Assembly (NCBI RefSeq): GCF_900188065.1
Contig: NZ_FZNQ01000012.1
Span: 1-64,000 of the forward strand
Reading direction: 5' to 3'
DNA from: Halorubrum vacuolatum
Lineage (GTDB): Archaea; Halobacteriota; Halobacteria; Halobacteriales; Haloferacaceae
DNA: 64,000 nucleotides
Translations under genes and position numbers: made by a program
The notes under the pieces: model-generated
Database searches by the model: none
What the model saw: the letters and a program-made list of their open reading frames with translations, nothing else
Told to the model about the DNA's origin: nothing
Shown: positions 6,475-25,945 of the stretch, piece by piece
How positions within the stretch are numbered: the stretch's first letter is position 1
Layout: the number at the start of each line of letters is the position of its first letter

Positions 6475-6497
6475 ATATGTACCTCGGTGCCGGAACG

Positions 6498-6508: not shown

Positions 6509-6573
6509 CGCTTATTACTCTATGAATTTAATGAACGATCTCTATCGACAGCCGCTGTCATGACACCTACCAA

Positions 6574-6582
6574 CCTTTATCA
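6574..6582 (+). promoter_or_regulatory. TATA-like box for ridA
   Basis: The element cctttatca is centred about 27 bases before the GTG at 6605. It supports that GTG as both transcription and translation start, because the ATG at 6560 would lie upstream of the box. Confidence 0.5.
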
Positions 6583-6604
6583 TGGTCCCCTCACGACCTC
6601 CGGT

Positions 6605-6985
6605 GTGAAACGCACTATTAGCACCGATGATGCACCGGCTGCGGTCGGCGCGTACAGCCAAGCGACGACGAACGGGGAACTGCTCATCACCGCCGGGCAG
6701 CTGCCGCTCACGGTCGATGGTGAGCTCCTCGATGACCGCCCTGTCGCCGAACAGACACGACAGTGTCTCTCCAACGTCGAGGCGATCCTTGCCGCCGAGG
6801 GGCTCTCGCTTACGGACGTCCTCAAAACGACGGTCTACCTGGACGATATCGACGACTTCGAGGCGTTCAACGAGGCCTACAGCGAGTTCTTCGAGTCGGA
6901 GCCGCCCGCTCGAAGCGCCATCGAGGTGGCTGCCGTTCCGAAGGGAGCCGCCGTCGAGATCGAAGCGATCGCCGTCGTCGAATAG
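6605..6985 (+). CDS. ridA: RidA/YjgF-family enamine/imine deaminase
   Basis: A 126-residue protein of exactly the family's usual length. RidA hydrolyses reactive enamine/imine intermediates released by PLP enzymes such as threonine ammonia-lyase, which is encoded nearby. Visible signatures include AVGAYSQA near the start, ITAGQLP, and the C-terminal block RSAIEVAAVPKGAAVEIEAIAV, whose Arg binds the substrate carboxylate. I chose the GTG start at 6605 (VKRTIST) because it gives the canonical N-terminus and is placed correctly behind a TATA-like box. The longer reading would add about 60 non-conserved residues. It is a monocistronic gene converging on fhs. Confidence 0.93.
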   Translation: MKRTISTDDAPAAVGAYSQATTNGELLITAGQLPLTVDGELLDDRPVAEQTRQCLSNVEAILAAEGLSLTDVLKTTVYLDDIDDFEAFNEAYSEFFESEPPARSAIEVAAVPKGAAVEIEAIAVVE

Positions 6986-7020: not shown

Positions 7021-8748
7021 TTAAAAGAGCCCGGTGATGTTTCCGTCCGCGTCGATGTCCATGTCGGCGGCGGCGGGTCTCGCCGGCAGCCCCGGCATCG
7101 TCAACGCGTCCGCGGTCAGCGCGACGAGGAAGCCGGCCCCGGCCGAGGGATAGATCTCGCTGATCTCGAGCTCCCACCCCTCGGGAGCGCCCTTGAGGCT
7201 CGCATCGTCGCTCAGCGAGTGGAACGTCTTCGACATGATGACCGGGTAGTCGTCGAAGCCGAGGTCGTTCATCTGTTCGATATCACTGAGCGCCTTCCCG
7301 GTGAATTTCACGTCGTCGGCGCCGTAGATCTCCGTGGCGATCGTCCGGATCTTCTCGTCGATGGGCGCTTCGAGATCGTACAGCGGCTCGAAGGCCTCCT
7401 CGTCGCTCTCTTCGACCGCGTCCACGACGTTCTCCGCGAGGTCGACGCCGCCTTCGCTTCCCTCCAAGAAGACGTTCGACTCGGCCGCGCGGATGCCCAA
7501 CTCGTTTGTACAGTGGTCGAGTACTGCCTGCACCTCCTCGTCGGTGTCCTCGGGGAACCGGTTGATCGAGACGACGACCGGGACGCCGAACTTCTGTAAG
7601 TTTCGGACGTGCTTATCGAGGTTCGAAAAGCCGGCCTCGACGGCGTCGACTCCGGCGTCGTCGATGGCGTCGTAGTCGACCGGCCACTGATCCAACCCGT
7701 GGTATTTAAGCGCGCGAATCGAGGCGACGAGCACGACGGCGTTCGGCGTCATTTCACCCATCCGGCAGACGACGTTCATGAACTTCTCCGCGCCGAGGTC
7801 GGAACCGAAGCCGGCCTCGGTGACGAGATACTCGCCCATGCCGAAGGCGGTCTTATCGGCGATGAGCGAGTTCGTCCCGTGCGCGATGTTCGCGAACGGG
7901 CCGCCGTGAACGAACGCAGGCGTCCCCTCTATCGTCTGCACGACGTTCGGTTTGATCGCATCGCGGAGGAGCATCGTCGCGGGGCCGGTGGCCTCGATGT
8001 CGTCCACGGTCACCGCGTTCCCGTCCTCGTCGTAGGCGACGATGATCCGGCCGATGCGTTCCTTTAGATCCGCCAGGTCGCTCGCGAGACAGAGCACCGC
8101 CATCAGCTCCGAGGCGGCGGTGAGTAGGAAGCTGTCCTCACGGGGGGTCCCGCCGGTCTTGCCGCCGAGACCGACGACGGTCTGACGGAGCGCCCGGTCG
8201 TTCATGTCGATCGCCCGCGGCCACGCGACGTTCGTCACGTCGATATCGAGCTCGTTACCCTGCGAGATCTTCGCATCGAGCATCGCCGCGATCAGGTTGT
8301 GTGCGGCCGTCAAGGCGTGGATGTCCCCGGTGAAATGGAGGTTGATGTCCTCCATCGGGAGCACCTGTGACTTGCCGCCACCGGCCGCGCCGCCTTTCAC
8401 GCCGAAGACGGGCCCGAGCGACGGCTCCCGGATGGCGATCATCGTCTCTTTCCCGATGTGGTTGAGCGTCTGACCGAGCCCGACCGTGGTGACGGTCTTC
8501 CCCTCGCCTTTCGGCGTCGGGGTCATCCCGGTCACCAACACCAAGTTCTGCGATTTCTCCGTGGACTCCTCCCGGAGACGCTCGATGGCGTGATGTTTTA
8601 CTTTCGCGGTGTACTCGCCGAAGTACTGGAGGTCCTCCAAGCCGAGCCCCCACGGCTCGACGAGCTCCCAGATCGGCTCCATCTCCGCTGACTGTGCGAT
8701 ATCGTAGTCCGTCGGAAAGGGCTCCTGATTGCTGTCTTCTGAAACCAT
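7021..8748 (-). CDS. fhs: Formate-tetrahydrofolate ligase
   Basis: This enzyme links formate, ATP and THF to 10-formyl-THF. Run in reverse, it releases formate and makes ATP from 10-formyl-THF. At 575 residues it is of standard size. The family's P-loop TPTPKGEGKT lies at residues 76-85, and the EPSLGPVFG and GGAAGGG blocks follow. The start at 8748 (MVSEDSNQ) has a TATA-like box about 30 bases upstream; the longer ORF to 8901 runs through promoter sequence. It lies between ridA and the two DAO-GcvT genes on the same strand as the latter. With FolD and the MetF-like protein it could oxidise methyl groups to formate while recovering ATP. Confidence 0.96.
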   Translation of the reverse strand: MVSEDSNQEPFPTDYDIAQSAEMEPIWELVEPWGLGLEDLQYFGEYTAKVKHHAIERLREESTEKSQNLVLVTGMTPTPKGEGKTVTTVGLGQTLNHIGKETMIAIREPSLGPVFGVKGGAAGGGKSQVLPMEDINLHFTGDIHALTAAHNLIAAMLDAKISQGNELDIDVTNVAWPRAIDMNDRALRQTVVGLGGKTGGTPREDSFLLTAASELMAVLCLASDLADLKERIGRIIVAYDEDGNAVTVDDIEATGPATMLLRDAIKPNVVQTIEGTPAFVHGGPFANIAHGTNSLIADKTAFGMGEYLVTEAGFGSDLGAEKFMNVVCRMGEMTPNAVVLVASIRALKYHGLDQWPVDYDAIDDAGVDAVEAGFSNLDKHVRNLQKFGVPVVVSINRFPEDTDEEVQAVLDHCTNELGIRAAESNVFLEGSEGGVDLAENVVDAVEESDEEAFEPLYDLEAPIDEKIRTIATEIYGADDVKFTGKALSDIEQMNDLGFDDYPVIMSKTFHSLSDDASLKGAPEGWELEISEIYPSAGAGFLVALTADALTMPGLPARPAAADMDIDADGNITGLF

Positions 8749-8773
8749 CTGAGCGGATATTCCGCAGGACCCA

Positions 8774-8808
8774 CTAATAATGTTCTCCCATCTGATAGCA
8801 TATATAAA
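8774..8808 (-). promoter_or_regulatory. Two TATA-like elements upstream of fhs
   Basis: ATTATTAG (8774-8781) is about 30 bases before the fhs ATG, and TTTATATA (8801-8808) is about 56 before. The first suits a leaderless transcript, the second one with a leader of about 30 bases. Two promoters or two regulators are possible. Confidence 0.4.
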
Positions 8809-8918
8809 GGATGTGTTCGCCGACCGGGCGCTCGTGTCCGCTCGTTCCCCCAATCTGGACGAAATATGATAGAATGTGGAGCGCCCATCGCGGCGATTCA
8901 CCCCCGAGCGCCGCCGCC

Positions 8919-11471
8919 TTATCGAATGAGTTTGTTTCGTCCCGGGTCGAAAAGCGGCTCGTCACGAACCGTCGCGTCGTATACCTCGCCTTCACAATGC
9001 ACCTGAAGGCTGGTTCCGGCTTCGGCGTACTCACTCGGCACGTAGGTGTAGGCGATGGACTCCCCGATGCTGTAGCCGTAGTTTGCGGCTTGGACGTATC
9101 CCAGCGTCTCCTCGCCATCGCAAACGGGACGGCCGGTGAGCAGGATGTCCGTCGAGTCGTCCACGGTGATCGGCGTGATCCGGTTTTCGATCCCGTCCGC
9201 CCGTGCGGCCTCCAGTGCCTCCTTGCCGATGAAGTCGGTATCCATATCCACCGCGAAGGGGAGCCCCGCCTCGAAGGGATTCGCGTCGGTGTCGATGTCC
9301 GCCCCCCAGAGTCGATACCCCTTCTCCAACCGCATCGAACTCAGCGCACCGCCGCCCATCGGGCGGACGTCGAGGTCATCTCCGGCCTCCCAGAGCGTCT
9401 CCCAGAGACGACGGCCGTACTCCGCCGGTGCCCATAGCTCCCAGCCGAGTTCGCCGACGTATGAGACACGGAGCGCGATCACCGGCACCTCGCCGACGTA
9501 CATCCGTTTCGCCCGGAAGTAGGGGAACCCCTCGTTGCTCACGTCCGCGTCGGTACACCGCTGTAAGAGCAGCCGGGACTTCGGCCCCCAGAGGCCGATG
9601 GTCGATTTCGCTCCCTCCTCCACGTGCACCGAGACCGTCTCCGGTGCGTGCTCCTCCAGCCAGCCGCCGTGGATCCCCGGCGAGTTGCCGCCGCCGGTGG
9701 TGACCATATACTCCTCCTCGGCGAGACGGACGACCGTCACGTCGGCGAGGATGCCGCCCCCTTCGTCCAACAACAGCGAGTAGCGGACCCGCCCGACGTC
9801 GACGTCGATGTCGTTGCTACAGACCCGCTGTAAAAAGTCGGTGCTTCCCGCGCCGGTCACGCTGATCGAGGAGAACGAGGTCATATCGAACATCGAGACG
9901 TGCTCGCGGGTGTGAAGGTGTTCGGCGCCCTCGATCGGCGAGCGGTTGATCCCCTGCCAGCCGTCCTGTTCGGGGATCATCCCCTCGTATCGGGATACGA
10001 GGTCCGCGTTCGACTCGTACCACTGCGGCGACTCCCAGCCGCCGCTCTGGTAAAACTCCGCGCCGAGCTCCCGCTGTTTTTCATAGAACGGGCTGGTCCG
10101 AAGTCCCCGATGGGAGGACGGCTGCCAGCGCGGCTCAACGATGCTGTAGACCTGCTCGTATCGTTTCGCCCCGCGGTCGACGAAGTACCCCTTCTCGCCG
10201 GCGTGCGGCTCGAATCGACGAACGTGGATGCCGCCGGTGTCGACCGGGCCGGACGGGAGCCTCGGGACGCCGTTTTCCATCCACTCCGCGAGGATCCGAC
10301 CGTAGCCACCGGAGTGGGTCCACCAGATGGCGAGCGCGGACCACAGACCGTCCACCGCCCGTGTTTCGCCGATCGCGGGCATTCCGTCCGGCGTGAAGAC
10401 GAAGATGCCGTTCTCGGTGGCCTCGTATTCCGCGTCCGCGGTCGCCGGAAGGAGTTCGTCGAAGGCCTGTTTCGGCGACTTCTCTCGGCCTCGGTGGGTC
10501 GGTTTGTGCCAGTGTTCCGGTGTGAACCCGCGGACGGACGCCTGTCGGTCCTCGCTGTTTTTCCCCATCGCGTCGGGGTCCACCGAGAGCGTCTCGTGGT
10601 TGTACGAGCCCAACCCGATCGCGTCGCCGTGGGTCCGGAAGTACAGCGAGTTGTCCTGGTCGCGACCGACGGGCTGATGCGGGGCTTCGCTCATGTACTC
10701 CTGGATGGCCCGATCGCCCGGTACCTCCAGGCCGGTCGTGTTCTCCCCGACGGAGCTTCCCGCATCGGCGAGCTCTGCCAGCGGTTCGGTGACGACGTAC
10801 TGGTGTTCGACCGGCGCGATCGGGAGATCGATCCCCGCCAGCTGACCGGTCTGATAGCCCCAGTTGTTCGTCGCCATGACACACCGCTCACAGTCGATCC
10901 GGCCACGGTCGGTGACCACCCCGTTGATTTCCCCGCCTTCGACATCGAGATCCGTCACCTCGGTGTTTCCATGGAACGCCGCGTCGGCGTGTTCCATGTA
11001 CCACTGGAGCGCCGCGATGCCGTCGACCCGGCCGTCCGTCGGCGAGTAGTAGCCGCCGAGGATCTGCGATTCATCCACGAGCGGCAGGTGTTCGACGACC
11101 TCTTCGGGCGAAAGCAGTTGCGGCTCCGGAAGGCCGTACGCGGTCGCCCATTCGACCCGCCGCCTGAGGAAGTCCATCCGCTCCTCGCTGCGGGCGACCT
11201 CGATCCCACCCACCTCATGATAGACGCCGGCCTCCGAGAGGAGCCGGCTCGTGTAGTAGGCCGTCTTCGTCTGGATCTTCGACGGCGACGTCTGGAACAT
11301 GATTCCCGGCGCGTGGACCGACGATCCGCCGGTGACCGGTAGCGGTCCCTGATCGATAACGACGATGTCCTCCGCACCGAGTTCGCTTAGATGGTACGCG
11401 ACGCTACAGCCGACCGCGCCGGCCCCGATGATAACCGTATCAGCCCGTGACGGTAGACTCTCTGAGCCCAT
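8919..11471 (-). CDS. FAD-dependent oxidase/GcvT fusion (dimethylglycine/sarcosine dehydrogenase-like), copy 1
   Basis: An 850-residue protein of the DMGDH/SARDH family, which oxidises an N-methyl amine and passes the resulting methylene group to THF. The N-terminal DAO domain (about 10-390) begins with the Rossmann motif GAGAVGCS. It has H53 in GGSSVHAPG, equivalent to the histidine that carries covalent FAD in mitochondrial DMGDH. A middle FAO_M-type segment precedes the C-terminal GcvT THF-binding domain (about 430-850), whose GGGILADVTV retains the Asp used in folate catalysis. I chose the Met at 11471, not 11492, because a TATA-like box lies 27 bases before it. It is followed 290 bases upstream by a paralogue. 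Electrons probably go to ETF. The substrate (dimethylglycine, sarcosine or other) is not resolved. Confidence 0.88.
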   Translation of the reverse strand: MGSESLPSRADTVIIGAGAVGCSVAYHLSELGAEDIVVIDQGPLPVTGGSSVHAPGIMFQTSPSKIQTKTAYYTSRLLSEAGVYHEVGGIEVARSEERMDFLRRRVEWATAYGLPEPQLLSPEEVVEHLPLVDESQILGGYYSPTDGRVDGIAALQWYMEHADAAFHGNTEVTDLDVEGGEINGVVTDRGRIDCERCVMATNNWGYQTGQLAGIDLPIAPVEHQYVVTEPLAELADAGSSVGENTTGLEVPGDRAIQEYMSEAPHQPVGRDQDNSLYFRTHGDAIGLGSYNHETLSVDPDAMGKNSEDRQASVRGFTPEHWHKPTHRGREKSPKQAFDELLPATADAEYEATENGIFVFTPDGMPAIGETRAVDGLWSALAIWWTHSGGYGRILAEWMENGVPRLPSGPVDTGGIHVRRFEPHAGEKGYFVDRGAKRYEQVYSIVEPRWQPSSHRGLRTSPFYEKQRELGAEFYQSGGWESPQWYESNADLVSRYEGMIPEQDGWQGINRSPIEGAEHLHTREHVSMFDMTSFSSISVTGAGSTDFLQRVCSNDIDVDVGRVRYSLLLDEGGGILADVTVVRLAEEEYMVTTGGGNSPGIHGGWLEEHAPETVSVHVEEGAKSTIGLWGPKSRLLLQRCTDADVSNEGFPYFRAKRMYVGEVPVIALRVSYVGELGWELWAPAEYGRRLWETLWEAGDDLDVRPMGGGALSSMRLEKGYRLWGADIDTDANPFEAGLPFAVDMDTDFIGKEALEAARADGIENRITPITVDDSTDILLTGRPVCDGEETLGYVQAANYGYSIGESIAYTYVPSEYAEAGTSLQVHCEGEVYDATVRDEPLFDPGRNKLIR

Positions 11472-11493
11472 GGACTCACTCCATACTGTCATG

Positions 11494-11502
11494 ATATTAA
11501 AT
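11494..11502 (-). promoter_or_regulatory. TATA-like box for DAO-GcvT copy 1
   Basis: ATTTAATAT on the minus strand is centred 27 bases before the ATG at 11471. The second paralogue therefore has its own promoter rather than relying on read-through. Confidence 0.5.
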
Positions 11503-11762
11503 ACACGGTCGGCCGCAGTTCTCCCCGCAGACACATACCATTGAGAGCGCCCAAATCGACCGCGTATACCGGATAGTAGAATGCCGCCGGTTCGTCGCCT
11601 ATCGCGGGTGATCCCCCACCGAACCACAACATAACTGAAATCGTATATGAATGGCGACGGCAACACAGCCCGTTGCGAGCCAGACAGATCCCGATCCGGA
11701 CGTCGGCGCCGGAGCCAGCGGCGACGCGTAGCCGATCAGGGACGAACGAGACGAATAGCCGA

Positions 11763-14336
11763 TCAGGGAACGAGCGGTTCCTCCCTGACGGTCGCGGCGT
11801 AGCGCTCACCCTCGTAGAGGACCTCAACCTCCGTGCCCGGCTCGGCGTACTCCGGTGGGAGATACGTGTACGCGATACAGGCACCCGCCGTATAGCCGTA
11901 TTCGGCGCTGTGGACGTAGCCGATCGTCTCGTCGCCGTCGAGGACGGGCCGATGGTTGAGGATGACCGCTTCGGGGTCGTCCAGCGTGAGGCAGGCTACC
12001 TTGTGTTTGATATCGTCGCCAGCGGCGGCCGCGGCGACGGCCTCCTTGCCGATGAAGTCGGTATCGAGGTCGACCGCCCAGCCGAGCCCCGCCTCGTAGG
12101 GGTTGTGCTCGGTGTGGAGGTCTTCACCCCACAGTCGGAATCCCTTTTCAATGCGCAGCGAGTCGAGCGCGCCGTTCCCGTACGGTCGGAGATCGTACGC
12201 CTCACCGGCATCGAGGAGGTGCTCCCAGAGCCGCTCGCCATACTCCGACGGGGTGTACAGCTCCCAGCCGAGCTCGCCGGCATACGACACCCGAAGCGCC
12301 GTGACGGGGATGTTCTTCACGAAGAGCCGTTGGCTCGTGAAGAAGGGGAACGCCTCATCGGAGAGGTCGGCGTCGGTCACCTCGCTCAGGACCTTCCGGG
12401 CGTCCGGACCGGTACAGACCATCGCCGCGAGACTCGAGGTGACGTCGTTCACCACGACGCCCTCGGGTGCCTGCTCACGCACCCACGCGACGTGGTTGTT
12501 GCCGACCTCACGCCCGGTGGTCAACAGCAGATATCGATCCGGGCCCGTCCGCGTGACCGTGATGTCCGCTCTGACGCCGCCACCCTCGTTACACATGAGC
12601 GTGTATTTCACGTCGCCGACGGCGAGGTCCATGTCGTTCGTACAGAGATACTGGATGAACTCGTCGGCGTCGCCCCCGACGACCTCCATCTTGTTGAACG
12701 AAGTCATGTCGTGGAGGCCGACCTTCTCGCGGACGTGAAGCGCCTCCGCGCCCTCGATCGGCGACCAGTATTTCGCCTCCCATCCCTCACGCGTCGGGAT
12801 CCGGTCGGCGTATTCGGCGACTAAGTCCGCGTTCGACTCGAACCAGTGTGGCTCCTCCCAGCCGGCCTCGGCCCACAGCTCCGCGTCGTACTCTTTGTGG
12901 GTGTGATACATCGGCGTCCGCCGGATGTCACGCTGGTGGTCCGTCCAGACCCACTTCGGGTGCATGATGTTGTAGACGATACGATACTCCTCGCCGCCGA
13001 TGTCGTGGGTGAAATCCCAGCTTCCCTCGTGCTCGTCGAACCGATTGACGTCGCAGTGGGCGAGGTCGATCGGGCCGGTGTCGAGTCGGGGGACGCCGTT
13101 CTCCATCCACTCCGCGAGGGCTTTCCCCGCGCCACCTGCGTGGGTGACCCAGATGGCCGCCGCCGTCCACAGGCCGTCGTATTCCTGCACTGGGCCCATT
13201 ACGGGAAGTCCGTTCGGAGACTCCGCGAACATCCCGTTGTATTTGTGTTCGAGCTCCTTGCCGGCGGTCGCCGGGATCAGCTCGTCGCTCGCCTGCCGAG
13301 GCGCCTTGTCGGGACGGTCGGGATGGGTCGCGTTCTCCATGTGGTACTCGGTGAACTCGTGGACCGACCCCTGCTCGCCGTCCGGATCGTTCCGACCGAG
13401 GTCCTTCGGGTTCGGGACGATCGGTTCGTGGTTGTACGATCCGATGCCGTAGGCGTCCCCGTGGGTCCGGTAGTACATCGCGTTGTCCTGATCGCGGAGG
13501 ATCGGCCGATCCGGGCCGACGAGCAGTCGCTTGGCCTTCTCCCCGGAGACGTTCTCGTAGTTCTCAAAGAGCGGATGGTCGGTGATGTCGACGGCGCCCT
13601 CGGCTAACTCCTCCAGCGACTCGGTCATCGTATACTGGTGTTCGACCGGCGCGACCGGGAGGTGGACCCCGAGCCGGTCGCCGAGCTGTCGCGCCCAGAT
13701 GTTCGTCGCGATGACGACCTCGTTACACTCGATCGTTCCGTTCTCGGTCACGACAGCGGTGACCGCCCCGTCATCGATCTCGACGTCCTCGGTTCGGGTG
13801 TGCGGGACGAACCGTGCGCCACGGTCCATCGCCTCCCGTGCGAGCGCGTCACAGGCCACGACGCCGGAGACCTGTCCGTCGGTCGGCGAGTAGTAGCCGC
13901 CGAGGATCCGATCCGGGTCGACAAGCGGCAGGTGTTCGGTGACCTCCTCGGGGGTGAGCAGCTGTGGGTCCTCGATCCCCCACGCCTTCGCGTGTTCGAC
14001 CCGACGTTGGAGGAAGTCCATCCGTTCTTCGCTTCTGGCGACTTCGATCCCACCCACCTCGTTGTACGCCTGCGTGCCGTCGGCGCCCTCGAGCTCTGAG
14101 TAGAGCCGCCGGCTGTAGTCGGCAAACTGGCCGAGGACCTTCGGTTCCGCGGTCTGAAACATGATACCCGGCGCATGCGTCGAGGATCCGCCCGTCGTCG
14201 GCATCGGCCCCTGGTCGACGACGACCACGTCGGATCGGCCCAATTTCGTCAACTGATACGCGATGTTACAGCCGACGATACCGGCGCCGACGATGACGGT
14301 GTCGGCCTCTTTCGGCACGCTGTCAGTCGTGTCCAT
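11763..14336 (-). CDS. FAD-dependent oxidase/GcvT fusion (dimethylglycine/sarcosine dehydrogenase-like), copy 2
   Basis: An 857-residue paralogue of the 8919-11471 protein with the same order of parts: Rossmann motif GAGIVGCN, likely flavinylated H54 in GGSSTHAPG, a middle segment, then a GcvT domain with GGGVRADITV and the C-terminal block TVREEPLVP. The start at 14336 (MDTTDSVPKEA) matches the start of its paralogue in alignment. The two are clearly related but diverged throughout, which suggests different substrates (for example dimethylglycine and sarcosine) rather than a recent duplication. It lies head to head with the HTH protein gene at 14588. Family membership is secure; the substrate is inferred. 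Confidence 0.88.
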   Translation of the reverse strand: MDTTDSVPKEADTVIVGAGIVGCNIAYQLTKLGRSDVVVVDQGPMPTTGGSSTHAPGIMFQTAEPKVLGQFADYSRRLYSELEGADGTQAYNEVGGIEVARSEERMDFLQRRVEHAKAWGIEDPQLLTPEEVTEHLPLVDPDRILGGYYSPTDGQVSGVVACDALAREAMDRGARFVPHTRTEDVEIDDGAVTAVVTENGTIECNEVVIATNIWARQLGDRLGVHLPVAPVEHQYTMTESLEELAEGAVDITDHPLFENYENVSGEKAKRLLVGPDRPILRDQDNAMYYRTHGDAYGIGSYNHEPIVPNPKDLGRNDPDGEQGSVHEFTEYHMENATHPDRPDKAPRQASDELIPATAGKELEHKYNGMFAESPNGLPVMGPVQEYDGLWTAAAIWVTHAGGAGKALAEWMENGVPRLDTGPIDLAHCDVNRFDEHEGSWDFTHDIGGEEYRIVYNIMHPKWVWTDHQRDIRRTPMYHTHKEYDAELWAEAGWEEPHWFESNADLVAEYADRIPTREGWEAKYWSPIEGAEALHVREKVGLHDMTSFNKMEVVGGDADEFIQYLCTNDMDLAVGDVKYTLMCNEGGGVRADITVTRTGPDRYLLLTTGREVGNNHVAWVREQAPEGVVVNDVTSSLAAMVCTGPDARKVLSEVTDADLSDEAFPFFTSQRLFVKNIPVTALRVSYAGELGWELYTPSEYGERLWEHLLDAGEAYDLRPYGNGALDSLRIEKGFRLWGEDLHTEHNPYEAGLGWAVDLDTDFIGKEAVAAAAAGDDIKHKVACLTLDDPEAVILNHRPVLDGDETIGYVHSAEYGYTAGACIAYTYLPPEYAEPGTEVEVLYEGERYAATVREEPLVP

Positions 14337-14587
14337 GGTACTGGATAGACAGTAGCGATGGCTCGGAAAATAGCTATCGTCTCCATCGATCATCAGTTCG
14401 TCCTTTTGAACAAGTGATAGGTCGAGTCAGACGCTCGTGACGGATCCTCCATCGTTCGTTTGTCCGTCAGGTCAGTCCCTCAGTTCGTCGAGTCGGAGCC
14501 CCGATTCCGCACGTCAGCCGGGAATCCCCGTCGCTCCCGAATCAGACGTGAGTATTTGAATGGGTTTGTTATTCCCGATGAACTACT

Positions 14588-15859
14588 ATGTGGCACAAGG
14601 TGTCAGTAACGATCATTGATATGGGACTTGGCACCGCCTTCGACGCCCTCTCACAGATCGTCGATCACTACGAATCACACGGGGGATCGATCACGCAGGT
14701 CACCGCGATGCCCGCCGATCCGAACGGGGACAAACTGTCCGTCGCGATCGACGTCCCGATATCGACGTTTCTCGGAAGTGAGGGTCGGCAGGGACTCACC
14801 CCGATGGGGGCGTCGATAACCGACGACGGTAACGTACACATCGAATACGAGCTCACCTCGCTCGACGAGCCGCCGACGCTCGAGGGGGCGACGTTTTCGT
14901 CCGTAGACACGACTGTCGATGTCGAGGACGACGAGGTGCGTCTGCGCGTCGAGTGTCTCGTCGAACCGGGGGATCAGCCCGTCGCGGCCTCGGCGGCGAG
15001 CCCCTCGAATGAACGGGATGAGACGACGTCCACCGGTGGCGAGCCGTCAGCAGAGGGCGACGGATGGGCAGAAGCGGGCGAAGACGACGGGCGGATCGGA
15101 ACCCTCGAAGACGAGGGACGGAACCGGTCCGCGGGTGAACCGGCCGCCAACGAGGTGGACTCCACGGTCGAGACCGACGGGGGAGACGCCGATCCCTCGA
15201 CTGAAACACGCGATGTGATCGATGATACGCTCGCGGCTACCCGTGACGAGTCGGTTCCGCCGTATGAGGACACCGACTACCTCCAGCGGCTCTATGAGCT
15301 CTGTGATAGCTTCACACAGATGAGCCGGCGGATCGACATGGACGTCTCCTCCGAAACGGTGCGCCGATACATGATCCAAGCGGACATCCATGAGCCAAAT
15401 ACCTACGATACGTCATCCGGATCCACATCGTCCGAGAACGAGGGCCCGGAGCAGCCATCCGCGGAGACACCCGACCAGTCCTCCGAAGAGACGCCTGAAC
15501 AACCCTCCGCGGGGACAGCCGAGGAACCGTCCGAGAAACCGACGGATCGATCCTCCGCCACCCAGCGGGACGCCCCGTTCACGGCCGACGAGACGCTCGA
15601 TGACCGATCCCTCGCCGATCACGTCGACCTTCCCGATGGGCTCGAAATGGAGGACGTCGTCGACGCCGTGATCGAATCGATGACCGTCCACGAGGCGACT
15701 CGTCGCCTCGACCTCGACCGTAAACAAACACGTGACCTCCTCGCCGATCTCGACCTGTTGGACCTGGTTTCACGACCGCTCTCGAAGGCACCCGAGGAGC
15801 CGATCAACTACGAAACGGTCGCCGGGCGGATCAACCGCTGTCGGGCGAACGAGGCGTGA
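14588..15859 (+). CDS. Uncharacterised acidic protein with two helix-turn-helix-like regions
   Basis: This 423-residue protein has three parts. Residues 1-125 form an alpha/beta region starting MWHKVSVTIIDMGLG. Residues 125-225 are a low-complexity acidic Ser/Glu/Pro linker. A compact helical segment near 235-275 (LYELCDSFTQMSRRIDMDVSSETVRRYMI) looks like a homeodomain-type HTH. A second disordered repeat region (PEQPSAETPDQSSEE type, about 280-330) leads to another helical segment near 350-400 (VHEATRRLDLDRKQTRDLL), also HTH-like. I recognise no family. Its position, divergent from DAO-GcvT copy 2 and 76 bases before the MetF gene on the same strand, suggests a regulator of the island. DNA binding is an inference from shape. 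Confidence 0.7.
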   Translation: MWHKVSVTIIDMGLGTAFDALSQIVDHYESHGGSITQVTAMPADPNGDKLSVAIDVPISTFLGSEGRQGLTPMGASITDDGNVHIEYELTSLDEPPTLEGATFSSVDTTVDVEDDEVRLRVECLVEPGDQPVAASAASPSNERDETTSTGGEPSAEGDGWAEAGEDDGRIGTLEDEGRNRSAGEPAANEVDSTVETDGGDADPSTETRDVIDDTLAATRDESVPPYEDTDYLQRLYELCDSFTQMSRRIDMDVSSETVRRYMIQADIHEPNTYDTSSGSTSSENEGPEQPSAETPDQSSEETPEQPSAGTAEEPSEKPTDRSSATQRDAPFTADETLDDRSLADHVDLPDGLEMEDVVDAVIESMTVHEATRRLDLDRKQTRDLLADLDLLDLVSRPLSKAPEEPINYETVAGRINRCRANEA

Positions 15860-15935: not shown

Positions 15936-16793
15936 ATGGCAACGGGAACGAGTGCGGCGACGGACGTTCACGGGGTTCAAACCCTGCTGACGAGCGCGCG
16001 GTTCGAACTGATGCCGTTCAAAAGCTTCGACGAGGAGATCGAACACCTCCCGGAGAACGCCACCATCGCGATCACGACCTCGCCACAGCTCGGGATCGAG
16101 CGGACGGTCGAAAAGACCGAGTTGGCCAAAGAGTTGGGATACGATGTCGTTCCACACATCGCCGCCCGCTACGTGGAGGATACCGATCAGCTCGAGGAGA
16201 TCGCCGAGCGCTTGGAGGCCGCCGGCGTGACCGATATCTTCGTGCCCGGCGGCGACCGCGAGGAACCCGCCGGCGAGTTCGAATCGGCGTACGACATGCT
16301 CGTGGCGCTTGAGGACCTGCCGTACTCGTTCCCGGAGGTCGGTATCACCGGCTATCCCGAGGGGCACGCCTTTATCGACGACGAGGAACTCGCCGCGTCG
16401 ATGGAGCGAAAGGCACCGTACGCCACCTACATCGTCACCCAGCTCTGTTATGACCCGAATACGGTGCTTGAATGGATAGAGACGATCCGGGATCGGGGGA
16501 TCGACCTCCCCGTTGAGATCGGCATTCCCGGCGTGATGAACTACCAGCGACTGCTCCAGATCTCACAGAAAGTCGGCGTCGGCGATTCGGTCAAATTCCT
16601 CCGCAAGACGACCGGCATCCTCGGATTCGTCAAGCAACTCGTCGGATCGCGTGGAAGATATAAACCCGACGACCTGATCGACGGCCTCTCGCCGCATGTC
16701 GGAGACGAGACATATAATATCCGTGGGGTCCACATCTACACGTTCAACCAGACGCCGGACACCGAATCGTGGCGTCGTGGACGGCTCGCGTGA
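15936..16793 (+). CDS. Methylenetetrahydrofolate reductase family protein (MetF-like)
   Basis: A 285-residue TIM-barrel protein of the MetF family, which interconverts 5-methyl-THF and 5,10-methylene-THF using FAD. Family blocks appear in order: a PGGD-containing strand (IFVPGGDREEP), GITGYPEGH, the TQLCYD substrate strand, GIPGVM, and the C-terminal VHIYTFN. The length matches short bacterial and archaeal versions that lack the eukaryotic regulatory domain. It is convergent with the DmdA-like methyltransferase gene. If that enzyme produces methyl-THF, this one would oxidise it to methylene-THF for FolD. MetF members usually reduce in biosynthesis, so the direction here is inferred from neighbours. 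Confidence 0.88.
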   Translation: MATGTSAATDVHGVQTLLTSARFELMPFKSFDEEIEHLPENATIAITTSPQLGIERTVEKTELAKELGYDVVPHIAARYVEDTDQLEEIAERLEAAGVTDIFVPGGDREEPAGEFESAYDMLVALEDLPYSFPEVGITGYPEGHAFIDDEELAASMERKAPYATYIVTQLCYDPNTVLEWIETIRDRGIDLPVEIGIPGVMNYQRLLQISQKVGVGDSVKFLRKTTGILGFVKQLVGSRGRYKPDDLIDGLSPHVGDETYNIRGVHIYTFNQTPDTESWRRGRLA

Positions 16794-16877: not shown

Positions 16878-18254
16878 TCAGTCGTTCTGCTGTGCTTCCT
16901 TCCGCGCGTTGAGCTTGGCTAGCTCCCGTGCGCTCGGGTTGACGGACTCCTTGAACGGAACCTTCGCGGCCGTCGCGAACACGGGTTCACCGGGCTCGTC
17001 GGCGTACTCGTCCGGCAGGTGCACTTCGAACTCGAGGTCGAGCTCCTCGGCGTAGATGTCGTCGTTGAGCGGCGTGTCGGTGACTTCCTGGATCTTCTCG
17101 GCCGGCACGAAGCCCATCCCGATGTTGGTCTCGAGATCCGGGTTCCACCACGGCGAGGTGAGGTAGCCGCACTCCTCGCCGGTTTCGGGGTCGGAGATGA
17201 GCCAGAAGTCGGGTGCGTAATCGCGGATCGGCTCGCCGGCCATTTTTAAGCCGATGAGCTTGAGATTGAACGGATACTCCCCGTTTTCGATCTGCGCTTT
17301 CTGTGCTTCGAGCGCCTCCTTGCCGATGTAGTCGGCCTCCTTGTCGTCGGGAACGTGATAGCCCAGGTTGACCTGGAAGGGCGACGTCTCGTGATCGAGG
17401 TCCTGTCCCCAGGACATGATACCGGCGGCGATCCGTCGGTGGTGACCGGGAGCGATCTGGCGGCCGCCGTGCTCTCTGACTGACTCCATGACGGGGTCCC
17501 AGACGCGCTCGGCGTTCTTCGAGGCGTCCCGGACGTAGATCTCGAAGCCTTTCTCGCCTGAGAAGCCGGTCTGGCTGATCAGCACCGAGCAGCCGTCGAT
17601 TTCGGCGTCCATGAGCCCATAGTAGGGGATCTCACTGACCTCCTCGCCAACGACGTCGACCATGACGTCCTCCGAGAGCGGTCCCTGGATCTGCATCGGC
17701 GCGACGTCGATCTCGTCGATCTCCACGTCGAAGTTCTCACCGACGTTGACGCCCTGCAGCCACTGCATCAGCGTCGAGTCCGAGATCGAGAACCAGAACT
17801 CGTCCTCCTCGGGACGGAGCAGGACGGGGTCGTTCAGCACGCCGCCCTCCTCGTTACAGAGGATGACGTACTTCCCGTCCATCGGGTCCATACCGGTCAC
17901 GTCTCGGGTGACGACGTAGTTGGTCAACGCCTCCGCGTCGGGGCCCTTGACACGGATCTGGCGCTCGACGGCGACATCCCAGAGCGTGACGCTCTCGGTC
18001 AGCGCCTCGTACTCGGCCATCGCTCCGCCGTCCTCGGGCTCGACGAGCCCTCGTGGGTGATACAGTCGGTTATACACGGTACACCGCCACGCGCCGTTCT
18101 CGACGAAGGACTTGTGGAAAAACGGCGACTTTCGAACCCGCGTCGAGACCAACATCTCGATGCCGGGGTCGCCCGTCTGGCGAAGGTTCCGCGGTACCGT
18201 CCGATCCGATTGATCAACACTGGGATAATTGGGATGCTCTTGGTTCCCGGTCAT
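16878..18254 (-). CDS. GcvT-fold aminomethyltransferase, DmdA-like (DMSP or related demethylase candidate)
   Basis: A 458-residue stand-alone GcvT-fold protein without an FAD domain. Its motifs look closer to bacterial DmdA than to glycine-cleavage T protein: TVYNRLYHP near 59-67, WDVAVERQI at 92-100, GGVLNDPVLL at 137-146, FSISDSTLMQWLQG near 155-168, and PMQIQGP. DmdA moves a methyl group from dimethylsulfoniopropionate to THF. No gcvH or gcvP is present, arguing against a glycine-cleavage role. I start at 18254; two TATA-like elements lie 22-31 bases upstream and a perfect inverted repeat lies further up. The tail (about 370-458) is longer than in SAR11 DmdA and very acidic. Other methylated donors, such as betaine derivatives, are possible. 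Confidence 0.8.
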   Translation of the reverse strand: MTGNQEHPNYPSVDQSDRTVPRNLRQTGDPGIEMLVSTRVRKSPFFHKSFVENGAWRCTVYNRLYHPRGLVEPEDGGAMAEYEALTESVTLWDVAVERQIRVKGPDAEALTNYVVTRDVTGMDPMDGKYVILCNEEGGVLNDPVLLRPEEDEFWFSISDSTLMQWLQGVNVGENFDVEIDEIDVAPMQIQGPLSEDVMVDVVGEEVSEIPYYGLMDAEIDGCSVLISQTGFSGEKGFEIYVRDASKNAERVWDPVMESVREHGGRQIAPGHHRRIAAGIMSWGQDLDHETSPFQVNLGYHVPDDKEADYIGKEALEAQKAQIENGEYPFNLKLIGLKMAGEPIRDYAPDFWLISDPETGEECGYLTSPWWNPDLETNIGMGFVPAEKIQEVTDTPLNDDIYAEELDLEFEVHLPDEYADEPGEPVFATAAKVPFKESVNPSARELAKLNARKEAQQND

Positions 18255-18350: not shown

Positions 18351-19004
18351 TCAGTCGTTGGCGTCGTCGATCGTCGCGGCGATCAGGTTGCGGATGCCAC
18401 GCCGGAGCCGGCCGCTCACCGCCGTCGAGGAGAGATCCATCTGCTCTGCGACGTCGTTCAGCGACATCTCCCTGGGCTCGCTGAAGTAGCCGTTATCATA
18501 CGCCACCTGAAGCGCCAACCGCTGTTCGTCGGTCAAGCCGTACGACTCCTCCCCGCCGGAGTCGGCGTTTCCGTACACGTTGATGATGTCGAGCGAGATG
18601 TCCCGTTCGGTCGCATATTCCCAGATCGAGTTCAACGCGACGCGGTCGGGCAGCACCAACCGGACGAGCCAGCCGCGGTCTTTCGTCTCCGTGTGCGCTA
18701 AAAACCCGTTCTCGTCGGTGACGATGGTGCTGATGAGTTCGGTCTCGGGAGTGTGTTCGATGTAGTAGATGCCGGTCCGGTCGGTCCAGTCGACGAGTTC
18801 GTAGGTCGCAACTGTCGGATCAGCCTCGAACGTATCCTCGATCGTCTCCCGGTCGTCGTACTCGACAAGGAACGGGAAAACGGCGGATCCGGGGTCGGTG
18901 GTCCCCTGTGGAATGACACGGATTGTGACATCACCGAGGCTTCGAAGCGTCGGGACGAGGGCGAGCCGTTCGTGTTCGATGTGGATCGTGGCTGTAATTG
19001 ACAT
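18351..19004 (-). CDS. Bat-type transcriptional regulator with C-terminal HTH_10 domain
   Basis: A 217-residue regulator in the style of the bacterioopsin activator family. The N-terminal half (about 1-150) is the alpha/beta sensor-like region typical of this group. The C-terminal block (about 158-212) begins LTDEQRLALQVAYDNGYF, continues SLNDVAEQMDLSSTAVSGRLRRG, and is a clear HTH_10 domain. The start at 19004 (MSITATIHIEHERL) fits related proteins. It lies immediately upstream of the DmdA-like gene on the same strand, with only the inverted repeat and promoter between them. It is the best candidate to control that gene, and perhaps the wider island, in response to a metabolite. Confidence 0.88.
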   Translation of the reverse strand: MSITATIHIEHERLALVPTLRSLGDVTIRVIPQGTTDPGSAVFPFLVEYDDRETIEDTFEADPTVATYELVDWTDRTGIYYIEHTPETELISTIVTDENGFLAHTETKDRGWLVRLVLPDRVALNSIWEYATERDISLDIINVYGNADSGGEESYGLTDEQRLALQVAYDNGYFSEPREMSLNDVAEQMDLSSTAVSGRLRRGIRNLIAATIDDAND

Positions 19005-19175
19005 GGGTAGCTGCGCGTGCGACGGATCGGTGGGTGTGAGCGAAAACGCGATCAATCGTCGTCACTCTATCGGTCGAATCGGACGATACGCGCTGGGACA
19101 CGGAATCCCAATCGGATCGATCACCGCACAAAGCTTCCGGACACGTCGGTCACATCGCCGCTCGTCGGGTCAACG

Positions 19176-21265: not shown

Positions 21266-22930
21266 TCACCCCTGTTTGTACTCGACACCTTTGCCGCCAC
21301 TTGGGTGATCCCAGTCGGTGTCTGCGACGACGGCGCAGGTGCCACACTCGATACAGGGCTGGGTGTCGAGGCTGACCAGGTGTTTCTCCTCGCCGTTCGT
21401 CTGCACCCGTTCATCGCGGTAACAGCCGCCACCGAACCCCTCCGCGCTGACTGGACAGGCGGTGACCGCGGTCCCGCTCGCGGCGTAGCTGTCGTCAAGC
21501 AGTTCGATATGCGGGTCGCCGACGTCGTAGGTGAGATCACCGATCCGGTCGGCGAGTTTCGGCGGCTCGATGGTGTCTCCCTCGCCCTCGATGGGCTCGC
21601 CGAGCACCTCGGCGATCCGGATCGGGATCTCCACATAGGAGATGCTGCTGTCCGGGACCATCCCCAACAGGAACGGCGAGTTGAACGCCCGTTCGGCGGC
21701 ACCGCCGAGCGCTTTCATCCCCAGCGCTCCGACAGGTGAGTTGATGAGCGTACTGCCGACGCCGGTCACCACGTCGCTCTCGGCGATGGATCGGGTTGCG
21801 CGATAGCGGGTCGGACGGAGCTGGTCCATCACCCCCTCCGAGTTAAGTTTCCGTTCATACAGCTCCCCGGCTTTCGTCGGGTCGCCTCGCGTCTTCGCGT
21901 CCGCATACGCCTCGGCGGCAAGGCCGCCGGCCGTGACGGCGTGATTCATTCCTTTGATGATCGGTCCTTGTGCCTGCATCTGTCCGGCCGCGTCGCCGAC
22001 GAGCAGCAGCCGTCCGCGATGCGGTGAGGGATGCGCGACCTTCTTCGAGTCCGGGACCAGCTTCGCGGAGTATTCACGCTCCTCGTACTCCCCCTGAAGC
22101 CACTGATCGAGCAACGGATGGGTGAGAAGCGCGTTCAACAGCTCGTGGGGCTCCGCCCGCTCGGCCGCCAGCGAATCGAGATGGAACACCGTGCCGATCG
22201 ACAGCGAGTCGGTGTTGGTGTAGAGGAATCCGCCGCCGCGGACGCCCTCGAAGAGGTCGCCCGAGAACAGGTGGGCGGCTCCCGGCTCGCCGTCGAGTCC
22301 GAACCGCTCGTCGATGACCTCCGGTTCCATCTCCACGACCGCCTTTACGCCCTGGAACCAGTCCTCGGGTTCATCCCAGTTCATCAATCCCGCATCCCGC
22401 GCCAGTTCGGAGTTGACCCCATCTGCGGCGACGATCAGGTCCGCTTTGATCGGATCGAGCTCGTCGCAGGTGACGCCGACGATCTCGCCGTCCTCGCGCA
22501 ACAGGCCGTTGACCCGTACCTCCGTCAAGAGCCCGCCGCCCGTCTCACGGGTGAGTTCATGAACGCGCTCGGCGAGCCACGAATCCATCCGCCGCCGGAG
22601 CACCGCATCACACCAGTCGGTGTCGTGGTGGTGGATCCGGTCCAGATCGAACGTCTTCACCTTGTCGCCGGCGATGTTGTGGATCAGGTACTCGTCGATC
22701 GGCCGCTCGGTCGCCTCCTCGCGGATCGCCGGAAAGAGGTCGTCGATCGTGTAGGGGGCCGACTCCTCCGCGTAGATGAGCCCGCCGGAGACGTTTTTCG
22801 AGCCGGCGTCGACCCCACGCTCCAACACGAGCGTCTCGACGCCCTGCCGTGCCAATGCTGCAGCCGCCGCCGCGCCGCCGGGACCCGCCCCGACGACGAC
22901 CGCCTCGTAGTGTTCGTGTTCGTCAGTCAT
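21266..22930 (-). CDS. ETF-quinone oxidoreductase, FixC-FixX fusion
   Basis: A 554-residue flavoprotein that takes electrons from the electron-transfer flavoprotein to the quinone pool. The FAD Rossmann motif GAGPGGAAAAAAL is at 14-26. The quinone/FAD body follows (GDAAGQMQAQGP, then IIKGMNHAVTAG). The C-terminus is an iron-sulfur domain with Cys in TACPVSAEG, GGGCYRDER and QPCIECGTC, then the FixX-like end DWDHPSGGKG. In nitrogen fixers FixC and FixX are separate genes; here they are one chain, as in ETF-QO. The gene overlaps etfA by 8 bases. It could serve the DAO-GcvT enzymes or acyl-CoA dehydrogenases, or be part of a bifurcating EtfABCX complex. Confidence 0.9.
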   Translation of the reverse strand: MTDEHEHYEAVVVGAGPGGAAAAAALARQGVETLVLERGVDAGSKNVSGGLIYAEESAPYTIDDLFPAIREEATERPIDEYLIHNIAGDKVKTFDLDRIHHHDTDWCDAVLRRRMDSWLAERVHELTRETGGGLLTEVRVNGLLREDGEIVGVTCDELDPIKADLIVAADGVNSELARDAGLMNWDEPEDWFQGVKAVVEMEPEVIDERFGLDGEPGAAHLFSGDLFEGVRGGGFLYTNTDSLSIGTVFHLDSLAAERAEPHELLNALLTHPLLDQWLQGEYEEREYSAKLVPDSKKVAHPSPHRGRLLLVGDAAGQMQAQGPIIKGMNHAVTAGGLAAEAYADAKTRGDPTKAGELYERKLNSEGVMDQLRPTRYRATRSIAESDVVTGVGSTLINSPVGALGMKALGGAAERAFNSPFLLGMVPDSSISYVEIPIRIAEVLGEPIEGEGDTIEPPKLADRIGDLTYDVGDPHIELLDDSYAASGTAVTACPVSAEGFGGGCYRDERVQTNGEEKHLVSLDTQPCIECGTCAVVADTDWDHPSGGKGVEYKQG

Positions 22931-24572
22931 CGCTCGCCCCCGTCACCGCCTCGATCGACCCACCCTGTTCGACGGCCGCCGTCAGCTTCGGAAGCACCTC
23001 GAAGAGGTCACCCTCGATGTAGTAATCGGAGAAGTCCCGAATGTCGGCGTCCGGGTCGTCGTTGATCGCGATGATCACCTCGGACTCGTCCATGCCGACC
23101 TTGTGTTGGACCGCGCCGGAGATGCCGGCGGCGATGTATACATCGGGTTCGACGGCCTGTCCGGATTCGCCGATCTGCCGTTCCTCGGTGATGTAGTCCG
23201 CCACGTGGCCGTCGAAGGCGTACGACGCGGTGATAACTCCGCGCGACAGGCCGAGGTCGGCGTCGTCGAACGCGTCGACGAGTTCGACGCCGAGTTCGAT
23301 CCCCCGCGTCGGATCCGTTCCGATGCCGCGGCCGAGCGCGACGATCACCTCCCGGCCCGTGAGGTCGACACCCGAATCCAGCGTGTCGTGGTCGACGATC
23401 TCCACCTGGAACCACTCGTCGGGAAGGTCGATGTCGTGTTCGACGATCTCGCCCTCGCGTTCGGGATCCGGCTCGGGCGCCTCGAACGCGCCGGGGATCA
23501 CGCTCGCACCCTGTGGGTGGAAGTCGCGATGGGGCTTGTCGATACAGAGGATGGTTGAGTATTCGAACCCGGAGAAGTCCGGCCGGGGCATGTGGAGGAC
23601 CCGTTCGAACTCCACGCTGTCGCCCGGCTTGCCGGTCTTCGCCGGGTTGGAGATCATCGCGTCATCGATGTAGAGGTCCGAACAGTCGGACGCGAGCCCC
23701 GAGTCGAGTTCGCCCTGCACGAGCGCGGAGAGGTCCCGGCCGTTGTTGGTCGCCGGGAAGACGTTGTATCGCGGCTCATGGTAGTCGCGCCACGCCGCCT
23801 CGAAATCCCGGCACATGTGGACGTACAGCTCCGTGTACGGTTTATGCCGGAAGCGCTCCAGTCGTGGATCGTCGTGGTAGACCACCCGGTCGGCCCCGTA
23901 GGCGATCGCCTCCTCGGCCAGTTCGCCCACGCCATCCCCGATGAGCACGGCGACGACGTCCTCGGGGTTCCCCTCCTCGTCGCCCCCGTAGCCATCCTCG
24001 CTGTTGTACTCGTCCATCATCTCGCGGGCGCGGCCGAGCATCTCCTTTGAGACCTCGATCAGCTCCCCCTGTTGGGTTTCACAGTACACCCACATGTCGC
24101 GATAGGTCTCACCCGAGACGCCCTCGACGTACTGTTTGTCCGCGGTCGGATGGTCGAGGTCCGGGTGCTTCTCCTCGGGCGGGACGTACTCGACGGCTTC
24201 CCCGTCGCCCTCATCGGTTCCCTCCACCGACTCGATACGGTTTTCGATCTGGGTGATCGCCCCCGAACGGTCCTCACCCGCCTTTTCACGCTCCAGCAGA
24301 TCGCGGAGGACGTCGCCGTCGTCGACGTCGCGAACCATGTTGGCGACGTCCGCGATGGAGAGCTCCGCGAGGTCGACCGTCTCGGGATCGATCTCCTCGC
24401 CGTCGGCCTCCAACTTCTCGATCCGGCTGTTGATAAGCGTCTTCACCGGGGCGCGGTCCTCGCCGCCCGTCTCCAGCTCCAGCATCTCACGGAGCTCCTC
24501 GACGTCGTCGATCCCGTTTACCTTCGGGCCGAGTTCGGCGATCTCGTGTTCGGTGGGGTCGATCTCCACCAT
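22923..24572 (-). CDS. etfA: Electron transfer flavoprotein alpha subunit with N-terminal helical repeats
   Basis: This subunit binds the electron-carrying FAD of ETF. At 549 residues it is over 200 longer than a plain EtfA. The C-terminal FAD domain (about 405-545) shows the family motif PDVYIAAGISGAVQHKVGM, preceded by GREVIVALGRGIG and the ESGQ turn. The N-terminal 110 residues contain two similar helical units, each with a DD-x-E/D-x-LR-x-ML/LL-E motif and a GEDR-x-x-x-x-x-I-x-x-RIE ending (about 20-54 and 75-114). These short repeats resemble SAP/Rho-N-type helical modules. The gene sits 2 bases after etfB and overlaps fixC. Confidence 0.92.
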   Translation of the reverse strand: MVEIDPTEHEIAELGPKVNGIDDVEELREMLELETGGEDRAPVKTLINSRIEKLEADGEEIDPETVDLAELSIADVANMVRDVDDGDVLRDLLEREKAGEDRSGAITQIENRIESVEGTDEGDGEAVEYVPPEEKHPDLDHPTADKQYVEGVSGETYRDMWVYCETQQGELIEVSKEMLGRAREMMDEYNSEDGYGGDEEGNPEDVVAVLIGDGVGELAEEAIAYGADRVVYHDDPRLERFRHKPYTELYVHMCRDFEAAWRDYHEPRYNVFPATNNGRDLSALVQGELDSGLASDCSDLYIDDAMISNPAKTGKPGDSVEFERVLHMPRPDFSGFEYSTILCIDKPHRDFHPQGASVIPGAFEAPEPDPEREGEIVEHDIDLPDEWFQVEIVDHDTLDSGVDLTGREVIVALGRGIGTDPTRGIELGVELVDAFDDADLGLSRGVITASYAFDGHVADYITEERQIGESGQAVEPDVYIAAGISGAVQHKVGMDESEVIIAINDDPDADIRDFSDYYIEGDLFEVLPKLTAAVEQGGSIEAVTGASDD

Positions 24573-24574
24573 GA

Positions 24575-25450
24575 TCAGTCACCCCCTGCAAACGGCGTGA
24601 ACTCCCCGAGTACCTCGTTCATCGCCTCCTCATCATCAGGGGAGACCGGCGTCGCCTCCCGCTCGGCCGGTCCCTTCGGGATCGGGTCGACGCCGGCGAC
24701 GATCGTCGGCGACCCGTCGAGCCCGATGAAGTCCGGATCGAGGTTGAGGTCCTCGTGGTTCCACACGGTGAGGTGATCCTCGAACGTTTCGGCGCGTGCT
24801 TTCGTCTCCTCGCGGAGGTCCTTATACCGGAGCCGGTGGTCGGCCTTCCGATAGCTCGGCTCGAACTCCGGATCCATCACGACGAACGCCGGGAGATCCG
24901 TCTCGACGGTCTCGATCTCGTCGACGTCGCCGGAGACGAGTCGCTTTGCGCGGAGTCGCCCTTCTTCGGGGTCGACATCGAGCGCGACGACGTGCGTGAG
25001 CAGCGAGCGATCCGGCAGGTCGTCGTTCATGTGGTGACACCACGTGGTCTGTGGCCCGGTGTGGCCGGTCTCCCCGTCGGCGGTTTTAAATCCCGCAACG
25101 ATGAGGTCCGGCGTTTCCTCCATGTTGGCGATCCCCGTCGTCACCGTCATCGCGGTCGCCCACGTGTCGGCGGCGGCCATTTCACGGTCGGACAATAAGT
25201 AGAGGTCATCGGCGTACACGTCACGCATCCCCTCCTGTAACACCTCCTTATAGCCCGGCGGACCCATGCTCATGAGCGAGACGGTCCCGCCGTGACGGAC
25301 CTTTTCCTGAAGGGCTGCCTGCAGTGCGACCTTGTCGTTCGGATTCATCACCGTCGGTGTCTTCCCCCGTTCCAGGTGGCCGTCCTCATCGAATGAGACC
25401 TTGCCCTCCCGGAAGTCGGGAACGCCTTTGGTCAGTACGAGCGTGTTCAT
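24575..25450 (-). CDS. etfB: Electron transfer flavoprotein beta subunit
   Basis: A 291-residue partner of EtfA. Typical features are the N-terminal strand LVLTKGVPDFR, the MNPNDKVALQAALQ helix, a long nucleotide-binding core containing MGPPGYKEVLQEGMRD, and the AETFEDHLTVW tail. The start at 25450 is preferred because a Shine-Dalgarno-like GGAG lies about 9 bases before it (GTGAGGAGATAGCT). This is unusual among the mostly leaderless genes here and suggests a leadered transcript. It is the first gene of the etfB-etfA-fixC operon. Confidence 0.93.
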   Translation of the reverse strand: MNTLVLTKGVPDFREGKVSFDEDGHLERGKTPTVMNPNDKVALQAALQEKVRHGGTVSLMSMGPPGYKEVLQEGMRDVYADDLYLLSDREMAAADTWATAMTVTTGIANMEETPDLIVAGFKTADGETGHTGPQTTWCHHMNDDLPDRSLLTHVVALDVDPEEGRLRAKRLVSGDVDEIETVETDLPAFVVMDPEFEPSYRKADHRLRYKDLREETKARAETFEDHLTVWNHEDLNLDPDFIGLDGSPTIVAGVDPIPKGPAEREATPVSPDDEEAMNEVLGEFTPFAGGD

Positions 25451-25588
25451 AGCTATCTCCTCACATTCATGGATGATCACGGTTCCTAATAGATGTTTAT
25501 GCAGGGTACGGTTAGCCGAACACTGCCGTGACGGTCGGATGGTGGGTCGAAGAAAACGGGAACGCGAGGATCGATAGGCTCGATCCGC

Positions 25589-25945
<357 letters not shown>

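Follow-up and report, generated by a model that had tools for sequence, protein, structure and literature searches.

Halorubrum vacuolatum codes for a stand-alone, DmdA-branch protein of the GcvT fold that we predict to be a folate-dependent demethylase of onium compounds, most likely of glycine betaine (rough probability 0.6). Its gene occupies positions 16878-18254 on the minus strand of the window, by which we mean the entire 64,000-nucleotide stretch analyzed. From the ATG at 18254 it specifies 458 residues; an upstream GTG would extend the product to 467, but the ATG is favored because the N-terminus that follows it (HPN.PSVDQSDR..PRNLRQ.GD) is conserved among the haloarchaeal homologs. 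Pfam recognizes GCV_T in full length (147 bits) and GCV_T_C weakly, and the 458 residues contain only these GCV_T domains, with no fused FAD domain of the DMGDH or sarcosine oxidase kind. The best curated NCBIfam model is that of DmdA (NF009133), with 239.7 bits against a cut-off of 410 that no haloarchaeal protein in 293 genomes reaches; the GcvT (156.7 bits, cut-off 300), LigM (39 bits, cut-off 580) and DesA (50 bits, cut-off 800) models likewise fall short of their thresholds. The closest PDB sequence is the DmdA structure 3tfh. An AlphaFold2 model (mean pLDDT 72.6, below 50 for residues 267-284 near the active site) is also nearest to 3tfh (Z 34.3), with GcvT a close second less than 2 Z units away (Z 32.7); hence, the model confirms the fold without discriminating between DmdA and GcvT. 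Members of the haloarchaeal family in plasmid records are annotated as glycine cleavage T protein or aminomethyltransferase; Haloarcula hispanica is among the natural carriers.

Judged by their domain composition, the neighbors of this gene form a methyl-group oxidation island:

383-2269, plus strand: BCCT transporter (PF02028, 563 bits)
3828-5087, minus strand: PLP-dependent threonine/serine ammonia-lyase of the IlvA type with an ACT domain (PF00291, 279 bits)
5084-6121, minus strand: FolD methylene-THF dehydrogenase/cyclohydrolase (PF02882, 228 bits; PF00763, 128 bits)
6422-6985, plus strand: RidA-type enamine deaminase (PF01042, 131 bits)
7021-8901, minus strand: formate-THF ligase, FTHFS (PF01268, 813 bits)
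8919-11666, minus strand: second DMGDH/sarcosine-dehydrogenase-type flavoprotein (Pfam; longest frame, true start probably downstream)
11763-14393, minus strand: DMGDH/sarcosine-dehydrogenase-type flavoprotein (Pfam: DAO, FAO_M, GCV_T and GCV_T_C)
14588-15859, plus strand: 423-residue haloarchaeal protein beside MetF, without a Pfam or NCBIfam match
15936-16793, plus strand: MetF-type methylene-THF reductase (PF02219, 49 bits; nearest PDB sequence 7xg9, MTHFR)
16878-18254, minus strand: DmdA-branch stand-alone GcvT-fold protein, proposed glycine betaine:THF methyltransferase (NF009133, 3tfh, tree, residues, fold model)
18351-19055, minus strand: BAT/HTH_10 regulator, likely local (PF04967, PF15915)
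21266-22930, minus strand: FixC/ETF-quinone-oxidoreductase-like flavoprotein (NF007450, 211 bits, below cut-off)
22923-24572, minus strand: FixB-like ETF alpha (PF00766, PF01012)
24575-25480, minus strand: FixA-like ETF beta (PF01012)
25589-25942, minus strand: FixX-like ferredoxin (4Fe-4S domains)

The first-pass annotation had placed the gene beside a MetF and a Bat-type regulator, with no gcvH or gcvP nearby. Both adjoining genes are as it described, and neither gcvH nor gcvP is found among the annotated neighbors (about 0.4-31.7 kb); the true GcvT of this genome is encoded elsewhere (C39, L003). The first 4000 nucleotides of the window have a GC content of 56.7%, against 61-68% across the remainder. 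Over 64 haloarchaeal loci, the recurrent neighbors of the DmdA-like gene are MetF, the HTH_10 regulator (a homolog in 45 loci), DMGDH, BCCT, IlvA, FTHFS, FolD and pabAB; SHMT lies close by in 10 loci, and homologs of the 423-residue protein (28-42% identical) occur next to MetF in 26. A creatininase-family gene is found close to the cluster in 10 loci (L183:15591-16388 and relatives), where it might provide a further entry to sarcosine.

The motifs by which the protein had been singled out as DmdA-like rather than a glycine-cleavage T protein (YN, WDVAVERQ and NDP) are real and not chance resemblances. Y61-N62, W92-D-V-A-V-E-R-Q99 and N141-D142-P143 align with Y32-N33, W58-Q65 and N107-D108-P109 of P. 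ubique DmdA, and W154, S156 and D159 with its W120, S122 and D125. Eight of these positions (Y61, N62, R98, Q99, N141, W154, S156 and D159) do not vary among the haloarchaeal (31), bacterial sister (19) and DmdA (6) sequences, whereas the GcvT sequences in the alignment have other residues there; the signature of the DmdA branch (YN, RQ, NDP and WxSxxDS) is shared by the haloarchaeal, sister and DmdA sequences to the exclusion of GcvT. The phylogeny that the first-pass annotation had proposed agrees with this. In a tree of 69 sequences, with bacterial sampling from plasmid records and one genome scan, the DmdA branch, comprising the haloarchaeal, bacterial sister and canonical DmdA proteins, stands apart from GcvT, the DMGDH C-domains and Tdm (support 100/100), and the window protein falls in neither a GcvT nor an unrelated clade. 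The 31 haloarchaeal sequences form a single clade (100/100) on a branch of length 1.33, outside the canonical DmdA clade. The AU test favors no order of the three DmdA-branch groups (p-AU 0.09 and 0.25), and we accordingly dropped the naming of any one clade as sister to the haloarchaeal family.

The earlier proposal of an archaeal DmdA-like demethylase therefore stands as regards the branch and, very probably, as regards 5-methyl-THF as a product of the haloarchaeal protein; the part that does not hold up well is DMSP as the substrate. A DMSP demethylase yielding methylmercaptopropionate and 5-methyl-THF would explain why the best match among curated models and structures is DmdA and why its signature residues are present, and an adjacent MetF would suit it as it would any methyl-THF product. 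We nevertheless regard it as improbable, since the DmdA cut-off is missed by 170 bits, the family lies outside the canonical clade and the residues confined to canonical DmdA (A154, S195, K199, Q200 and E238) are replaced by Q, T, G, E and R throughout the haloarchaeal sequences. Published DmdA trees already contain haloarchaeal homologs, placed as "non-DmdA" (PMC7487153). The same study identifies W171 in its alignment, which by our alignment would correspond to W197 of P. ubique, as the key residue for DMSP interaction in DmdA, and phenylalanine in its place goes with a DMGDH-like non-DmdA clade (PMC7487153). Phenylalanine occupies this DMSP-contact column in 31/31 haloarchaeal sequences; however, tyrosine is present in 3/6 DmdA-side sequences, including the canonical DmdA of Phaeobacter, which makes the column weak evidence against DMSP. 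Among the accessions of that published DMGDH-like clade are some that we take to be haloarchaeal. No homologs of DmdB, DmdC or DmdD were detected in the 64 haloarchaeal loci (E 1e-10), and the acyl-CoA dehydrogenases and hydratases of the window genome are of generic type only. As known DmdB and DmdC genes need not be linked to dmdA, this absence is a supporting feature. A DMSP substrate would also leave unexplained the tie to DMGDH, and thereby to N-methylglycines, described below. Taken together, score, clade, residues and neighbors rule out a canonical DmdA.

For the preferred substrate, glycine betaine, we infer the donor, the direction in which MetF runs and the succession of steps from what was observed: the sequence and fold of the protein, its clade, the gene order and the co-occurrence. 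The DmdA-like protein would pass a single methyl group from glycine betaine to THF in a redox-neutral reaction, yielding dimethylglycine and 5-methyl-THF, and MetF, running oxidatively, would convert the latter to 5,10-methylene-THF. The two DMGDH-type flavoproteins could then take dimethylglycine through sarcosine to glycine with the formation of two more methylene-THF, their electrons going to the ETF/Fix system. Oxidation of the C1 units to formate, with ATP, would fall to FolD and FTHFS; SHMT would combine glycine and methylene-THF to serine, and the ammonia-lyase, aided by RidA, would turn serine into pyruvate. MetF is what separates the hypotheses, in that methylene-THF, which needs no MetF, is what flavin-dependent demethylation of dimethylglycine and sarcosine gives, and 5-methyl-THF arises only by methyl transfer to THF. 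For the methylene-THF reductase step, haloarchaea are believed to rely on another reductase, of the Mer type (PMC8305020), with which a catabolic role of the window-type MetF fits. A second MetF of this type (69% identity) is encoded at L195:9065-9991 (G000:C55), adjoining what by eye appears to be a FolC-type folylpolyglutamate synthase. In Ruegeria, MetF2, THF oxidation and a serine ammonia-lyase are induced when betaine is the growth substrate (PMC12478193).

The distribution of these genes over 293 genomes of the haloarchaeal order points in the same direction. The DmdA-like gene is carried by 70 genomes, the window-type MetF by 72, the DMGDH type by 101 and a Rieske homolog of GbcA by 43; the query for the last is a homolog and not a proven GbcA (132 bits with the model for glycine betaine monooxygenase, cut-off 670). 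Haloarcula marismortui has a Rieske gene on pNG700. All 70 carriers of the DmdA-like gene have both MetF and DMGDH, with MetF alone in 2 further genomes, and the pairing of MetF with the DmdA-like gene is kept even where the two lie far apart (G012, G039, G060, G170 and G205). DMGDH is present in 99/101 genomes with a DmdA-like or Rieske gene and in 2/192 with neither, such that, as a genomic pattern only, the DmdA-like gene is interchangeable with a known type of demethylase upstream of DMGDH. As the genomes are related, genome-level p-values overstate their independence; relatedness was checked at the genus level, where 37/38 DMGDH-bearing genera have a DmdA-like or Rieske gene (Fisher p = 5e-4). 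The DmdA-like gene occurs without the Rieske gene in 58 genomes, the Rieske gene without the DmdA-like gene in 31 and both in 12. Over all 293 genomes the two show no anti-association (p = 0.56); one emerges only when the comparison is restricted to DMGDH carriers, and such conditioning can itself produce it, so that we base the argument on the either/or pattern. The tie to DMGDH points to an N-methylglycine and thereby glycine betaine as substrate, a reading that depends on the DMGDH paralogs acting on N-methylglycines.

The presence of MetF follows the DmdA-like gene rather than DMGDH, and 0/31 Rieske-only genomes have it. Since the Rieske route from glycine betaine gives formaldehyde and not methyl-THF (PMC12478193), a MetF is needed only with the DmdA-like enzyme. 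This pattern also bears on a divergent GcvT, or a stand-alone folate subunit serving the flavoproteins, that would make methylene-THF; the GcvT fold and the 157 bits on the GcvT model speak for such a protein, yet methylene-THF would not need MetF, each DMGDH already has its own GCV_T domain, the clade is separate and the true GcvT is elsewhere in the genome, making this highly improbable. By scores, clade, the GCV_T domain of DMGDH itself and the MetF pattern, GcvT, LigM and DMGDH-subunit identities are ruled out.

BHMT-type (S-methyl_trans) proteins were found in 0/293 genomes, and MttB-family proteins in 13, all of them carriers of the DmdA-like gene (hypergeometric p 3e-9, at the genome level), which is consistent with a shared methyl-THF outlet. 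In 46/70 carriers there is neither a Rieske enzyme nor an MttB/MtgB homolog, and hence no other known betaine demethylase; in the window genome, no Rieske enzyme, MttB/MtgB homolog or BHMT was found. Counted against the betaine reading are the Rieske enzyme in 12 carriers and the MttB-family gene in 13/70. Within a sample of 19 genomes of its genus, this genome alone has the DmdA-like gene, MetF or DMGDH, suggesting that they were acquired as a unit.

Sequence does not distinguish glycine betaine from other small onium donors, and both the chemistry and the MetF link would be valid for any methyl donor. Another onium or N-methyl compound (e.g. proline betaine, dimethylsulfonioacetate or several betaines) feeding the same C1 pathway is thus a possibility, albeit a minor one. 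The haloarchaeal clade has two parts: clade A, which includes the window protein, and a paralogous clade B, which includes the second copy of the window genome (C39). A MetF gene is found no more than about 9.5 kb away in 47/55 loci without a clade-B copy (clade A) and in 0/9 with one; this, together with the different neighbors of the bacterial sisters, suggests more than one substrate in the branch. As the clade-B paralog accompanies a clade-A copy in the genomes sampled, it may act on a second methyl donor. This 64%-identical paralog (L153, G000:C39:352433-353515, and L005) has an HTH_10 regulator of its own and no MetF nearby. Against a different donor for the window protein stand its strict association with DMGDH and its either/or distribution relative to the glycine betaine monooxygenase homolog. 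Among the bacterial sisters, which score below the DmdA cut-off (L048-L126, L042-L045), most genes lie beside Lrp, OsmC, enoyl-CoA hydratase and acyl-CoA synthetase, and a few, in Marinobacterium and Halomonas, beside MetF, FolD, PurU and BCCT. A DmdA-related aminomethyltransferase adjoining metF was reported from SAR11, its substrate not being known there (PMC3160333).

Glycine betaine is among the main osmolytes in hypersaline waters. In ten haloarchaeal genomes surveyed in 2011, genes for dimethylglycine oxidase were seen close to BCCT transporters; the survey went no further than to suggest that betaine might be used, and it named no enzyme for the initial demethylation step (PMC3102087). 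How glycine betaine is demethylated in the sea is described as long elusive in a 2025 study, and the routes listed in its accessible text (monooxygenase, homocysteine and corrinoid) do not include a direct THF route (PMC12478193). We found no functional assignment for the haloarchaeal family in the open-access literature, and its role in glycine betaine metabolism appears new. It is somewhat better than an even bet that a cobalamin-free, O2-independent, single-protein glycine betaine:THF methyltransferase is the haloarchaeal alternative to the Rieske monooxygenase, that the DmdA branch covers both N-methyl and S-methyl osmolytes, and that about a quarter of haloarchaeal genomes can strip all the methyl groups of betaine via folate. 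If so, a direct THF route would be added to betaine demethylation and a gap in the haloarchaeal pathway filled, many "glycine cleavage T protein" annotations would be corrected, and there would be reason not to score DmdA-like genes in saline metagenomes as DMSP demethylation.

The closest known relatives are the DmdA proteins of P. ubique (3tfh) and Phaeobacter inhibens (pPGA1_262), which share the fold, the YN/WDVAxERQ/NDP/WxSxxDS residues and the tree branch and are likewise stand-alone, THF-linked enzymes. The haloarchaeal protein is about 32% identical to annotated DmdA and differs from it in having N- and C-terminal extensions, in lacking SKQGG and in being tied to DMGDH and MetF without DmdBCD neighbors. 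A marine bacterial sister clade (Pelagibacteraceae, Marinobacterium, Halomonas, roseobacters; Lichenihabitans) is 35-40% identical to it and shares Q188, R273 and E234 against canonical DmdA; it differs in mostly having W rather than F at column 231 and C rather than W at 92. The Rieske glycine betaine monooxygenase GbcA would catalyze the same step, glycine betaine to dimethylglycine, and seems to be its alternative in haloarchaea, but has an unrelated fold and acts oxidatively, producing formaldehyde (PMC12478193). The corrinoid glycine betaine demethylase MtgBCD likewise delivers the methyl group to THF for oxidation by MetF2 (PMC12478193), but requires cobalamin and an MttB-family protein, a family not found in the window genome. 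LigM-MetF-LigH of Sphingobium SYK-6, encoded by the ligM-metF-ligH operon, also combines GcvT-fold methyl transfer to THF with MetF and FTHFS, and this THF route is an alternative to the Rieske enzyme VanAB for vanillate (PMC6888825). LigM, on whose model the window protein scores just 39 bits, differs in acting on an aromatic O-methyl group in vanillate O-demethylation. A LigM-like homolog of THF-dependent O-demethylases, of weak similarity and identified by eye, lies with an IclR regulator at L196:9396-10805 (G000:C33) in the window genome. By analogy, the DmdA-like protein and MetF may stand to the Rieske enzyme in haloarchaeal betaine breakdown as LigM and MetF stand to VanAB in that of vanillate.
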